From NCBI GenBank assembly GCA_003660555.1, contig QMUK01000013.1, positions 1 through 18,926 of the forward strand: DNA of 18,926 bases, in the 5' to 3' direction. This DNA comes from Thermococci archaeon. GTDB taxonomy: Archaea; Hadarchaeota; B88-G9. Below the pieces are notes generated by a model. It made no database searches, was not told where the DNA came from, and was given only the letters and a program-made list of their open reading frames with translations. Positions within the stretch are counted from its first letter, which is position 1. Each line of letters begins with the position of its first letter. This document shows, piece by piece, positions 9,967 to 13,803 of the stretch. Made by a program: the position numbers and the translations under genes.

Positions 9967-10878
9967 ATGGGAAAGAAGGTAGTTAAGAGGAAAAAAGGAG
10001 TGGGTCGGCGCAGATCAACTAGATTATTCCTTTATAGTCTCCTAGTGATTGGAATAGGTCTTTCACTAATCATTAAAGCTCCCCTCTTTCAGACAGAGAG
10101 TATATCCACTGAGAATTACTTGAGTTTCGGGAACCAAACTGTTTGTAAGCTTAGACTCTCCGTAGTGACCTTAGAAGAGGACATCTGGTCGAAATACTTT
10201 GCTAAAGATGAGAAAATACTGATTTCGGGCGAAATTTCTGAGATAGCTGAGGACCTAGATAATATCTCAGTCAATCTCGTGATTTTCCTACAACCTTTCT
10301 CCGAGATAAACGGGAAAATAGAGGAAACAGAGGTCTCCGATTGGGGCAAAATAAGGAGGAAAACCAATATGATAAATATGGGAGTTCCAATTTATTCTCT
10401 GGCTGATTTCGACTTCTATCTAGAGAAGAGAATTGGGTTGTCTACTGTGTTTTATTCCCCCGTGAATAGAATAGAAATCCCGGACGTGAACGTTACCATA
10501 GATGCTTTCCAAGGAGTGCAGGGTCCAGAGAATGAAATAAAGAGGGAAGTTGAGGATAGGTTTAGGAAATTCGCCACAGGGAGACTTGGATTTTACTCGA
10601 TAGTCCATCAGTTCTCTGGAGACAAGGGGAAAAAGAGTGTTTCCGTACTACTTAGTGTTCCCAAGGAGGAGTTGAGTAGGGCCTCTCCCTACTACAGGAT
10701 GGAAGTCAGGGTGACTAGAAAGAATGGAGACACCATTAACGGGGAAATAACACTACCAAGTGATCTAGGATTTGAAGAATGGAGAAAAGAAAAAGAGGAA
10801 GAGGCAAATAGGATTATCCAAGAAATGTTAGCAAAGATGACTAATCAGACAGTAACCCTTTCGTCAGAGAGGAGGTAG
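9967..10878 (+). CDS. single-span membrane protein with large extracellular domain
   Basis: No family recognised. The 303-residue protein opens with a very basic cytosolic tail (12 Lys/Arg in the first 19 residues), then one span at about 20-38, giving an N-in, C-out topology. The external part is beta-rich and has several N-glycosylation sequons, including Asn-Gln-Thr, Asn-Ile-Ser and Asn-Val-Thr. A Lys/Glu helix lies near the C-terminus (about 268-290). Cysteine is nearly absent. ATG 9967 has AGGGGTGA six bases upstream. It diverges from the coiled-coil pair, and its last 15 bases overlap the end of cetZ on the other strand. Position and topology suggest an envelope role, with no more specific function visible. 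Confidence 0.75.
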   Translation: MGKKVVKRKKGVGRRRSTRLFLYSLLVIGIGLSLIIKAPLFQTESISTENYLSFGNQTVCKLRLSVVTLEEDIWSKYFAKDEKILISGEISEIAEDLDNISVNLVIFLQPFSEINGKIEETEVSDWGKIRRKTNMINMGVPIYSLADFDFYLEKRIGLSTVFYSPVNRIEIPDVNVTIDAFQGVQGPENEIKREVEDRFRKFATGRLGFYSIVHQFSGDKGKKSVSVLLSVPKEELSRASPYYRMEVRVTRKNGDTINGEITLPSDLGFEEWRKEKEEEANRIIQEMLAKMTNQTVTLSSERR

Positions 10879-11976
10879 ATCGAAGCCTCTTCTACTTTCT
10901 TCCTCTTTCCTTTGAAACTCGGATGCAACCTCAAAGAGTTCCCTTATCCTCGGGACATCAGTCAATCCGGAGAGAGCCACTACTGCTGCTACGAAGTGGG
11001 CCCTGGGTATTGGATAGTCCCCGGCCCTTACGTCGTGTCCGACTATCTCACTTTCTAGCCACTTCCTAGCTTTATCTGTACCCATTCTGCTTAGTAGCTC
11101 TGGAGATCCAGCCACTAGAACTAAAGCTCTCTCCGCTGATCTGTAATCGCAAGGTAACGTCAGCTTTCCCTTAACTGCTCTTCTTATTATTGAGACTATC
11201 CTAGTAGTTTTCCCTAAGTCTCCCACTTCCTCCTTCCTTTTTAATATTCCGAGAAATCCTTTCTTTGTCTCTACTTGCTCCATAGAGTAGCCTAAGGTAG
11301 TTATTCCTCCCCTGCCTATCGTGTTTAGGACCTCAGAAGCATCTATTATTTTTTCTCCCACCTCTCCTCCCGGAGACACTTCACCCGCCCTAGAAAGCAG
11401 AGTCATTCTCTTAGCTATTTCCTTGTTTACCTTCTCGTATCCGGAACTACCCTCTCTAGGGGAAACGAAGGCACTGTTATCCACTAGTATGAGTCCGTTC
11501 AGATCGCCTATTGAAGTCTTTATGCTCCTAGCTGCATTTAGGGCATAGACCTCTCCCTCGTCTCTAGAGGGAAGAACTCCTAGTCCATATATGGGCACGT
11601 CTGACCTGTCGGACAATTCCCTAGCGAAGACTGGGAGCATTCCCCCGCCTGTCCCTCCACCTAGCCCCGCGACTAGGAGTATGGCATCGTGTTCACTTCT
11701 CTGATATTGCTCTATCCTCGAAGTTATTTTATCTATTTCTTCTGCTGCTACTTCTGCTCCTAGCTTGCTGTCTCCTCCCGTTCCTTGACCTCTTAGGCTT
11801 TCTCCGACTATAAACTTCCTATCGTCTTTTATGTTATTTAATCCAATTGAATCTGCTTTAGATGTGTTAAAGACTAATGGTGTAAAAGTTTTCGTTGGCA
11901 TTTTCTTCTCTGTCTCAACTAATTCGTTAACTATTCTACTCCCGGCCTTTCCGATACCTATGGCTAGGAACCTCAC
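10864..11976 (-). CDS. cetZ: tubulin/FtsZ-superfamily protein CetZ
   Basis: GTP-binding cytoskeletal protein of the archaeal CetZ family, which controls cell shape in haloarchaea. It has 370 residues. The nucleotide-binding start is GIGKAGSRI. The tubulin signature (T4 loop) is GGGTGGG at residues 106-112. YGLGVLPSRDEG followed by NAARS is typical of CetZ. The acidic T7-loop residue that completes the GTPase site of the next subunit lies in LPCDYRSAERAL (Asp277). The region KARKWLESE...RAGDYP...VAAVVALSGLTDVPRI is diagnostic of CetZ rather than FtsZ. The start is GTG 11976: the upstream gene's TGA stop is embedded in its GAGGTGAT ribosome site, so the two are translationally coupled. Its 3' end overlaps the gene at 9967. 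Confidence in the family is high; the role here is inferred. Confidence 0.93.
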   Translation of the reverse strand: MRFLAIGIGKAGSRIVNELVETEKKMPTKTFTPLVFNTSKADSIGLNNIKDDRKFIVGESLRGQGTGGDSKLGAEVAAEEIDKITSRIEQYQRSEHDAILLVAGLGGGTGGGMLPVFARELSDRSDVPIYGLGVLPSRDEGEVYALNAARSIKTSIGDLNGLILVDNSAFVSPREGSSGYEKVNKEIAKRMTLLSRAGEVSPGGEVGEKIIDASEVLNTIGRGGITTLGYSMEQVETKKGFLGILKRKEEVGDLGKTTRIVSIIRRAVKGKLTLPCDYRSAERALVLVAGSPELLSRMGTDKARKWLESEIVGHDVRAGDYPIPRAHFVAAVVALSGLTDVPRIRELFEVASEFQRKEEESRRGFDLPPL

Positions 11977-11980
11977 GAGA

Positions 11981-12346
11981 TCACCTCATCCTATCTAACA
12001 TATAGACAGAGATTACATATAAAGTTAGGAGTATCCCCAGGAACGCTGAGACCTTGGACTTACCCTCTCCTCGTAGTATTCTGTAACCGAAGTACAGAGA
12101 TATCGCTGACAGAATCAACGATTCTAAGCTGCCGAGAAAGAAGGGTTTCACCATAGGTTGAGTACTAGTAAAGAAGTCTTTCAGATAAGATATCTTTTCG
12201 GAGAAAGATTTCAGCAGATACAGCTTTTCCTTCTGCCTGTAAACTTCAAGCATCTTGTTTAACAAGTAGAATTTACTTAAAATTATCACTAGGGAATCCA
12301 GTATGAAGAGGAGGCCGAGGAGTCTCCAGGGCTTCAAGATCCGCAC
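11981..12346 (-). CDS. three-span membrane protein coupled to cetZ
   Basis: No family recognised. The 121 residues contain spans at about 8-30, 68-91 and 98-117. The basic N-terminus (MRILKPWR) should face the cytosol. The loop at 31-67, rich in Lys, Tyr and Glu, would then be external, and a short RGEGKSK loop internal. The stop codon lies inside the cetZ ribosome site four bases before its start, so both are made from one message. This makes it a candidate membrane partner or regulator of CetZ. The start is uncertain. GTG 12346 gives 121 residues, but TTG 12337 has GGGGTG six bases upstream and would give 118. Confidence 0.75.
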   Translation of the reverse strand: MRILKPWRLLGLLFILDSLVIILSKFYLLNKMLEVYRQKEKLYLLKSFSEKISYLKDFFTSTQPMVKPFFLGSLESLILSAISLYFGYRILRGEGKSKVSAFLGILLTLYVISVYMLDRMR

Positions 12347-12353
12347 CCCACGC

Positions 12354-12362
12354 TTTTTAAAA
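12354..12362 (+). promoter_or_regulatory. TATA-like element in the divergent cetZ promoter region
   Basis: TTTTTAAAA is centred 40 bases before the ATG at 12398. A transcript starting near 12384 would carry a leader of about 14 bases with the GGGTG ribosome site (12385-12389). On the minus strand a second AT-rich element (TTTTTAATA, 12390-12398) is placed to serve the membrane protein-cetZ pair. The two promoters therefore lie face to face within about 50 bases and probably interfere or are co-regulated. Confidence 0.45.
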
Positions 12363-12397: not shown

Positions 12398-13429
12398 ATG
12401 TTCCTCTTCATTGGTCTCGGGGATGCCGGCTGTAGAATCACTGACTCTATAGTTGGTTCCAGAGGAATAATCCAGAGGGAAGAGAAGAGAAGTGGCATAG
12501 TAGTAAACGTCTCCAAGAACTTCCTCATGTCACTAAAGAACGTCCCAATGGAAAACAGAGTGTTACTAAGATACGAAGAGGTTGAGGTCCCCGAGTTTGG
12601 GAGAGATAGAGGAAGAGTCGTTGCCGAGGACCAAATAGACTTCGTCATGGATGCCATAGAGAGAGTGTATACCTCGAGAATACAAGCCTTCATGATGGTC
12701 TTCGGTCTGGGTGGATCCTTCGGCGGTGGAGCTGCTCCGGTACTGGCAGAGAGTCTAAGGAGAATGTATGGGGAAGAGGTCCCCGTTTATTTATTGGGTG
12801 TCATTCCCAGCAAGAACGAACCCGATAACCTCTTTTCTAACGCTTCGAGTACCCTAAGGGAACTCAGCAGATACGTGGATAGTGGTATATTAGTAGACAA
12901 CGACTTCTTCCTCGAGAGAGGACTCGGTAGAACGTCCTTCAACGAGATAAACGAGATGATAGCCAAGCCTATCAGGATGATCACAGTTGATGACGGGGGA
13001 AAGGAAGGAGAATATTCCTTAAAAAGTGCTGAAGTAATAACAGTTCTATCAGAAGGGGGCATAGGAACTATAGGATACTACGAAAGAGAGATAAAGAGAA
13101 AAAGTGGGCTACTATCTGTACTATCTAAAAAAAGGAAGGGATTAATTGAAGAGGGTAAAGTAGACTTAGGTTCCATGGTGGAGGAAACCCTTAGAAATAA
13201 TCTGTACCTAGATTGCGATCCAACTAGTGCCTCTAAGGCTATATTGGTGGTAGCTGGCCCTCCAGAAGAGCTTAGATTCTTCGAGGGACAGAGGATGCTT
13301 AAGGAACTCTTGGGATGTGACGTAGTTGGTGGTCTAAGAGCTGCACCGAGATGGAATAAAGTGGGAGTGACAATCCTGTTAAACGACGTTGAGAGTAGAA
13401 GAGTGCGAGAGATCATGGAGGGTCGATGA
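12398..13429 (+). CDS. divergent CetZ-like protein with altered T4 loop
   Basis: Second tubulin/FtsZ-superfamily protein, 343 residues, alignable with the neighbouring CetZ along its length. Shared features are GLGDAGCRI for GIGKAGSRI, VYLLGVIPSKNE for the CetZ LPSRDEG segment, ILVDND, the FNEINE helix, EGGIGTIGY, and LDCD...AILVVAGPPEEL for the T7 loop (Asp274). The T4 tubulin signature is not canonical: GGGTGGG in CetZ is GGSFGGG here (residues 105-111), so the phosphate-contacting Thr is Phe. The CetZ Ala-Glu-Arg after the T7 loop is also lost. It may bind GTP weakly or not hydrolyse it, and could cap or modulate CetZ filaments (inference). The start is ATG 12398, matching the CetZ N-terminus; a GTG at 12383 would add five residues. 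It is followed after one base by the zinc-ribbon gene. Confidence 0.85.
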   Translation: MFLFIGLGDAGCRITDSIVGSRGIIQREEKRSGIVVNVSKNFLMSLKNVPMENRVLLRYEEVEVPEFGRDRGRVVAEDQIDFVMDAIERVYTSRIQAFMMVFGLGGSFGGGAAPVLAESLRRMYGEEVPVYLLGVIPSKNEPDNLFSNASSTLRELSRYVDSGILVDNDFFLERGLGRTSFNEINEMIAKPIRMITVDDGGKEGEYSLKSAEVITVLSEGGIGTIGYYEREIKRKSGLLSVLSKKRKGLIEEGKVDLGSMVEETLRNNLYLDCDPTSASKAILVVAGPPEELRFFEGQRMLKELLGCDVVGGLRAAPRWNKVGVTILLNDVESRRVREIMEGR

Positions 13430-13430
13430 A

Positions 13431-13580
13431 ATGAATAAAAGTGGAATAGTGAAATGTCCGAGATGCGGATTCGAATTCGACGTGTCTTATGCTAGAGTGA
13501 CCTCATGCCGTACCTGTCCGCTCTCTGTATCGTGTGAAGGGGTCAAGTGTCCTAAATGTGGACACGAATTCCTCAAATGA
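13431..13580 (+). CDS. 49-residue zinc-ribbon protein
   Basis: A very small Cys-rich protein. CPRCG (Cys9, Cys12) and CPKCG (Cys40, Cys43) are the two knuckles of a zinc ribbon. A middle loop adds Cys26, Cys29 and Cys35, giving seven Cys in 49 residues, so a second metal or redox site is possible. Paired CPxCG micro-proteins are known in haloarchaea (HVO_2753 type), but the middle Cys triplet sets this one apart. ATG 13431 lies one base after the stop of the CetZ-like gene and has GGAGG nine bases upstream. An in-frame ATG at 13389 would overlap that gene and add no zinc-ribbon sequence. The operon position suggests a role with the tubulin-like protein, or simple co-transcription. Confidence 0.8.
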   Translation: MNKSGIVKCPRCGFEFDVSYARVTSCRTCPLSVSCEGVKCPKCGHEFLK

Positions 13581-13641: not shown

Positions 13642-13803
13642 ATGGAACGGGGGCAGGCTAAAGTCGAATACATGGCTGTTATAGCTCTTGCTCTGATTTT
13701 ATCAGTTATCTCTCTGATAACAATATTGAAACACGGAAGTGGTGAGATAGCAAACAAGGAATTAGAGAATCTAAATAACTCGTTAGAAAATTTCAAAAAA
13801 TGA
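13642..13803 (+). CDS. mini-pilin-like protein with class III signal peptide
   Basis: A 53-residue protein. The start has the archaeal prepilin/archaellin pattern: a short charged leader MERG, cleavage before Gln5, the conserved QxxxEY (Gln5, Glu9, Tyr10), then a hydrophobic helix at about 11-28. This is the class III signal peptide (DUF361 type) cut by an FlaK/PibD-like peptidase, leaving the hydrophobic stretch on the mature protein. The remainder, about 25 residues rich in Asn, Glu and Lys, is a short amphipathic helix with no globular head. The mature product of 49 residues could be a minimal pilin subunit or a small envelope peptide. The start is supported by a promoter placed for a leaderless message. 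No pilus ATPase or platform gene is nearby. Confidence 0.85.
   Translation: MERGQAKVEYMAVIALALILSVISLITILKHGSGEIANKELENLNNSLENFKK

Follow-up and report, generated by a model that had tools for sequence, protein, structure and literature searches.

A CetZ-type paralogue with altered phosphate-contacting loops, a candidate pseudo-GTPase, beside a canonical cetZ gene in a Hadarchaeota genome

Introduction

The window analyzed here (the whole 18,926-nucleotide stretch of contig QMUK01000013.1) carries two cetZ-type genes, and one of them, P0001, encodes a protein in which a GTP-binding loop that is canonically GGGTGSG reads GGSFGGG. The question raised by this locus is whether P0001 is a working CetZ GTPase, a gene copy on its way to being lost, or a protein that has kept the CetZ fold for a different role. 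The features in and around P0001 are as follows.

10864..11976, minus strand: neighboring CetZ, P0002, 370 amino acids, with T4 GGGTGGG, T3 GQGTGGD, T7 IIDASEV and C-terminal FDLPPL (Pfam CetZ_C 3e-60)
11981..12346, minus strand: predicted membrane protein, 121 amino acids, between both cetZ genes (hydropathy; no Pfam match)
12354..12362, plus strand: TATA-like TTTTTAAAA, a putative archaeal promoter ~36-44 nt 5' of the P0001 ATG (sequence reading)
12398..13429, plus strand: CetZ-type paralogue P0001, 343 amino acids, pseudo-GTPase candidate (Pfam, AlphaFold model, fold match)
13431..13580, plus strand: zinc-ribbon-like protein, 49 amino acids, starting 1 nt past the P0001 stop (sequence; sub-threshold zinc-ribbon matches)
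13642..13803, plus strand: 53 amino acid protein with an N-terminal GQxxxEYM-hydrophobic segment (sequence; no Pfam match)

The membrane-protein gene lies 4 nt upstream of P0002 on the P0002 strand, and these two genes form a unit that is divergent from P0001. The TATA-like sequence sits in the 51-nt divergent gap between P0001 and the membrane-protein gene; matches from a sigma-70 scan did not exceed chance, which is the expectation for an archaeon. The 53 amino acid protein (MERGQAKVEYMAVIALALIL...), encoded near the cetZ genes, resembles a protein with a class III (pilin-like) signal peptide. The CetZ genes of Thermococcales and of some Halobacteria have been linked to type IV pili (PMC9856176); for the cetZ locus in this window, a pilus link is only suggestive.

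Family assignment and integrity of the P0001 gene

The frame at 12398-13429 of the plus strand comprises 343 codons with zero internal stops. Its translation gave Pfam matches above the cut-off to Tubulin (4.6e-17, 63.4 bits, cut-off 33) and to CetZ_C (5.1e-18, 65.6 bits, cut-off 21.6), and scored 40.7 bits against the NCBIfam FtsZ equivalog TIGR00065, below the cut-off of 295.2. An AlphaFold (AF2) model built with 42 homologues had a pLDDT of 88.2 and a pTM of 0.88. The closest fold to this model was that of CetZ1 (4b46; Z 39.9, rmsd 2.4 A, 313 residues), and the nearest solved proteins were the CetZ1 and CetZ2 of Haloferax. By Pfam and fold together, P0001 is unmistakably a member of the CetZ family. 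It resembles Haloferax volcanii CetZ1 (4b46) and CetZ2 (4b45) over the whole length of the fold (Z 39.9 and 37.9; 33% and 30% identity) and shares with them T6, the ribose Glu and the T7 Glu, but differs in that T3, T4 and T5 are degenerate, the T7 Asp is a Lys and the C-terminal tail is missing.

The initial annotation had P0001 aligning with the neighboring CetZ throughout, and this is borne out, since P0002 has the same domains and aligns over nearly the full length at 32% identity. P0002 differs from P0001 in having T4 GGGTGGG, T3 GQGTGGD, T7 IIDASEV and a C-terminal peptide, and the two are not sisters in the tree described below. P0001 ends in REIMEGR, and in the alignment the tail that carries the acidic-hydrophobic peptide of other CetZs (a DIEPLF-like end) is absent.

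The in-frame codon score of P0001 is 0.38 per codon, compared with at most 0.07 in the other frames, and resembles that of neighboring genes. Because the frame is open and codon-biased, P0001 is not an evident pseudogene; it has stayed open at ~35% identity to its relatives and, with its codon usage and confident predicted fold, is not evidently undergoing gene decay. We consider it improbable that P0001 is a dispensable, lineage-specific duplicate heading for loss: no orthologue turned up in the genomes searched and its branch is long (1.37-1.73 changes per site), as such decay would have it, but a neutral frame of 343 codons is not expected to be open at this divergence, codon usage is normal, structural positions are kept and the model is confident.

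Nucleotide-binding loops

The loops of the nucleotide pocket, and the T7 stretch, were located in P0001 at the following positions.

12413..12439, plus strand: T1 loop GLGDAGCRI, with Asp9 for Gln (alignment)
12584..12613, plus strand: T3 position EVPEFGRDRG, with the GHGxGxD motif lost and a 2-residue deletion (alignment)
12710..12730, plus strand, residues 105-111: T4 loop GGSFGGG, canonical GGGTGSG (sequence; 252 homologues)
12803..12841, plus strand: T5 loop IPSKNEPDNLFSN, with the ribose-side Glu141 kept and Gly142 changed to Pro (alignment)
12896..12901, plus strand: T6 Asp-Asn kept, guanine side (alignment)
13016..13036, plus strand: T7 stretch SLKSAEV, with Asp209 changed to Lys and Glu212 kept (alignment)

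The GGSFGGG loop is encoded at 12710-12730 exactly as first read. The N-terminal GLGDAG had been described as kept, and its glycines are indeed retained, but the position that is Gln in 29 of 29 canonical CetZs, and Gly or Lys in paralogues, holds Asp9 in P0001. In T3, GHGVGADNxLG has become VPEFGRDR--G, with one of seven conserved positions kept and PEFGRDR in place of the GHGxG(A/T)(D/N) motif, and the EG motif of T5 reads EP. The T7 Asp had also been described as kept, which proved incorrect: where canonical CetZs have VVDxSEV, P0001 has SLKSAEV, the conserved Asp is Lys209, and only Glu212, at the catalytic position, is retained. Conserved positions lost on the bottom, or T7, side are Asp209, Arg310, Asp313 and Pro315. 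Judged from the aligned loops, the initial annotation understated the change in P0001, having missed the T3 loss, the EG to EP change in T5 and the missing C-terminal tail.

P0001 retains the glycines of T1, the Glu of T5, the Asp-Asn of T6, the Asn of H7 and the Glu at the catalytic position of T7; the kept and changed residues together show that the pocket is preserved on its guanine and ribose side and has been lost on its phosphate side. In FtsZ, T2 and T3 touch the beta and gamma phosphates and T4 the alpha and beta phosphates (PMC8456036), and a single T4 change, G105S or T108A, markedly cuts GTPase activity (PMC3618327). Because its T4 is GGSFGGG and not GGGTG[SAG]G, P0001 is classified by its motifs as a CetZ-fold paralogue that fails the GTPase-defining motifs, and not as a working CetZ GTPase.

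Rarity of the T4 change and selectivity of loop loss

The T4 loop was compared across 252 distinct, mostly archaeal tubulin-superfamily homologues in which it is covered. P0001 is the sole protein of the 252 without the third Gly, which the other 251 all have. The Thr is present in 247, and apart from P0001 it gives way to Ala, Met or Val in four proteins whose glycines are intact. P0001 alone has Phe in place of the Thr and alone has the Gly and the Thr both changed. With such a distribution, the change is not put down to chance. A sequencing error was also considered and rejected, since turning Gly-Thr into Ser-Phe takes several substitutions and T4 is not the only loop altered.

Conserved columns were defined as those at least 90% conserved in the 29 canonical CetZs. 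At the conserved positions of T3, T4 and T5, P0001 keeps 8/22, compared with 18/22 in C24b, an equally divergent CetZ paralogue of the same genome (Fisher p=0.005), and with 109/132 pooled over the rows of the hydrothermarchaeal paralogues termed CetZ-b (p=2e-5, from rows that are not independent); the neighbor P0002 keeps 17/22. Outside T3-T5, P0001 and C24b are alike (45/81 and 38/81 kept; p=0.35). Inside P0001 alone, the phosphate loops and the rest of the protein did not differ significantly (Fisher p=0.80), and the informative comparison for loop loss is with equally divergent paralogues rather than within P0001. The contrast between P0001 and C24b is limited to T3-T5, and therefore constraint has been released at the phosphate site and not over the whole protein.

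At the sequence level, the proposal that P0001 may be a non-hydrolysing or weakly binding CetZ is well supported, more firmly than first supposed, because every loop that contacts the phosphates has changed and constraint has been lost there specifically. As to its biochemistry, we infer little or no GTP binding by P0001, and no hydrolysis. It is very improbable that P0001 still works as a GTP-binding CetZ whose loop is simply unusual, in the manner of members of the tubulin superfamily in which T4 changes are tolerated. The T4 Thr is indeed replaced by Met, Ala or Val in a few FtsZ-like paralogues of archaea whose pocket is otherwise largely intact, and the guanine contacts persist in P0001, but in P0001 T1, T3, T4 and T5 are altered together and T3 has a 2-residue deletion.

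Orthologue search and ancestry

Searches of about 990 archaeal genomes returned no orthologue of P0001, and peptide-pattern scans of genome contigs and viral contigs likewise found none. Protein searches of its own phylum (28 genomes), of Hydrothermarchaeota (23 genomes) and of 392 genomes sampled from the phylum of genome G034 returned only other CetZs at 28-39% identity, the best matches being canonical CetZs at 31-39%. Searches of three more phyla (29, 115 and 292 genomes) came back empty at an E threshold of 1e-35, a result that speaks only to close orthologues. The host genome is the sole member of its class in the searched set, and the weight of any claim about P0001 is limited because one genome carries it.

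The host has six tubulin homologues: two FtsZ proteins (contigs C16 and C5), a tandem cetZ pair (C24a and C24b) and the window pair P0001 and P0002. A tree of 36 CetZs placed P0002 and C24a as sisters (support 99/94). The best position of P0001 was beside the CetZ-b clade of ~338 amino acid paralogues (84/76), on a long branch and not firm. P0001 as the sister of P0002, that is, as a recent local duplicate, was rejected (AU p=0.026), and P0001 joined to P0002 and C24a together was borderline (AU p=0.074). A constraint placing P0001 inside canonical CetZ was not rejected (p=0.22), though it lies outside in the best tree, and the topology test neither rejected nor supported a grouping with C24b.

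Other degenerate paralogues beside cetZ

CetZ-b is found at L008:2641-3657, L112:6001-7017, L113:6001-7017 (Ca. Pyrohabitans jungbluthii JdFR-16) and other loci, and in Hydrothermarchaeota (L112, L113) it starts about 1-15 nt 3' of canonical cetZ. Like P0001, CetZ-b is a divergent, shorter CetZ-like protein encoded beside a canonical cetZ, and it is the candidate sister group. The two differ in that CetZ-b has a fully conserved GTP pocket, a T7 acid that is not conserved and a C-terminal peptide of the DIxPLF type, whereas the P0001 gene is divergently oriented to cetZ with a small TM gene between, and not directly downstream. The host's own C24b (L037:8121-9272, contig C24) occupies the same position beside cetZ and has an intact T4 with T7 IIGSSSV, the catalytic-position Glu being a Ser. 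Degenerate neighbors of canonical cetZ thus turn up repeatedly (CetZ-b, C24b and P0001), and the three may or may not share an origin.

P0001 may derive from CetZ-b as an old second lineage that adjoins canonical cetZ, both in Hydrothermarchaeota and at the host's own C24 locus, with the a/b pairs duplicated together in the host. P0002 and C24a are well-supported sisters that each adjoin a divergent paralogue, in the best tree P0001 attaches to the CetZ-b clade, and the sisterhood of P0001 and P0002 is rejected and its inclusion with P0002 and C24a nearly so. The support is nevertheless weak and involves long branches, P0001 with canonical CetZ is not rejected, and the degeneration is opposite, CetZ-b keeping the pocket and losing T7. 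We regard this origin as possible but somewhat unlikely; it is compatible with P0001 being a pseudo-GTPase.

Tandem FtsZ-like arrays at L043 (G042), L135 (Bathyarchaeota) and L130 (Thermoprotei) mix members that keep the T4 loop intact with members whose T4 Thr has become Met, Ala or Val. P0001 is similar in having its T4 Thr replaced beside an intact-loop relative, but these paralogues are FtsZ-like and not CetZ, mainly the Thr is changed, and their other loops are mostly intact. In the FtsZl1 family, T6-H7 and the usual C-terminal domain are not identifiable (Makarova and Koonin 2010, PMC2875224). Like FtsZl1, P0001 belongs to the tubulin superfamily and is without part of the filament and nucleotide machinery; unlike FtsZl1, it keeps T6-H7 and the C-terminal domain and has lost the phosphate loops instead.

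A separate observation concerns a protein of 270-434 amino acids, with an N-terminal signal, a coiled-coil ectodomain, a C-terminal TM segment and a short basic tail, whose gene follows canonical cetZ, or cetZ-b if present, usually within 0-30 nt and in several archaeal lineages.

L037:9284-10192; L040:8731-9564; L042:8000-9184: signal/coiled-coil/TM gene
L082, L084, L088, L090, L091, L093, L094, L096, L103, L106-L111: signal/coiled-coil/TM gene also downstream of cetZ

A leave-one-out HMM of these proteins matches the host's own C24 copy (5.9e-25, with coiled-coil bias possible), and no window protein matched the family. The protein could be a membrane anchor for CetZ; no description of it was found in the literature looked at.

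A proposed role for P0001

Tentatively, and with a little less than an even chance of being right, we propose that P0001 is a pseudo-GTPase CetZ, most likely acting on the cell's own canonical CetZ filaments as a regulator that does not hydrolyze GTP. Filaments of the tubulin type are built such that each GTP site is completed by the T7 face of the adjoining subunit (PMC8456036), and therefore P0001, with a live T7 Glu and a dead GTP face, could cap a CetZ filament at the end where GTP is exposed and halt its growth. Its partners would be P0002 next door, the C24a protein, or both. The T7 face of P0001 could dock on the GTP face of the terminal CetZ subunit, whose active site the retained Glu212 could even complete, and the dead nucleotide face could not accept the next GTP-dependent subunit, such that the chain would be ended or broken. 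For such a regulator speak the adjacency of P0001 to a canonical cetZ and a genome with four CetZ-type and two FtsZ proteins. The partner, cap or mixed-filament role first suggested for P0001 is plausible, and we infer it from adjacency to a canonical cetZ in one genome. Against a regulator, P0001 comes from one genome, with no orthologue showing that the degenerate loop is maintained, its interaction with CetZ is a prediction, and the P0001 and P0002 genes are divergent and not a tandem operon.

Docking by P0001 may be impaired too, because conserved positions on the T7, or bottom, side are also lost, and for the same reason a use outside filaments is possible. The CetZ fold of P0001 might have been taken into such an unrelated use, its remodelled pocket (Asp9, Arg69, Arg71, Phe108) binding another ligand or a protein. 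Conserved residues have been lost from both longitudinal faces, the C-terminal tail is missing, and the exchange of glycines for Phe and charged residues points to a pocket of a new kind, not just a looser one; on the other side, P0001 adjoins a canonical cetZ and retains the T7 catalytic-position Glu and the guanine-side residues. We judge this use unlikely. More speculative, and distinctly unlikely, is the general idea that some archaeal CetZ cytoskeletons combine a catalytic CetZ with a half-dead partner. Here, P0001 (dead GTP face, live T7 Glu) and C24b (live GTP face, dead T7, Glu to Ser) would be complementary, in an alpha/beta-tubulin-like division of labor of independent origin.

Nearly all of the tubulin-superfamily members compared keep the T4 phosphate loop, and polymerization is coupled to GTP. 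If P0001 is under selection, a CetZ that has lost its phosphate site and kept its fold would be a natural test of the role of the nucleotide in CetZ assembly. Taken with the hydrothermarchaeal CetZ-b paralogues beside cetZ, which lack a conserved T7 acid, P0001 suggests that archaea may have catalytic and non-catalytic tubulin pairs outside the alpha/beta-tubulin line.
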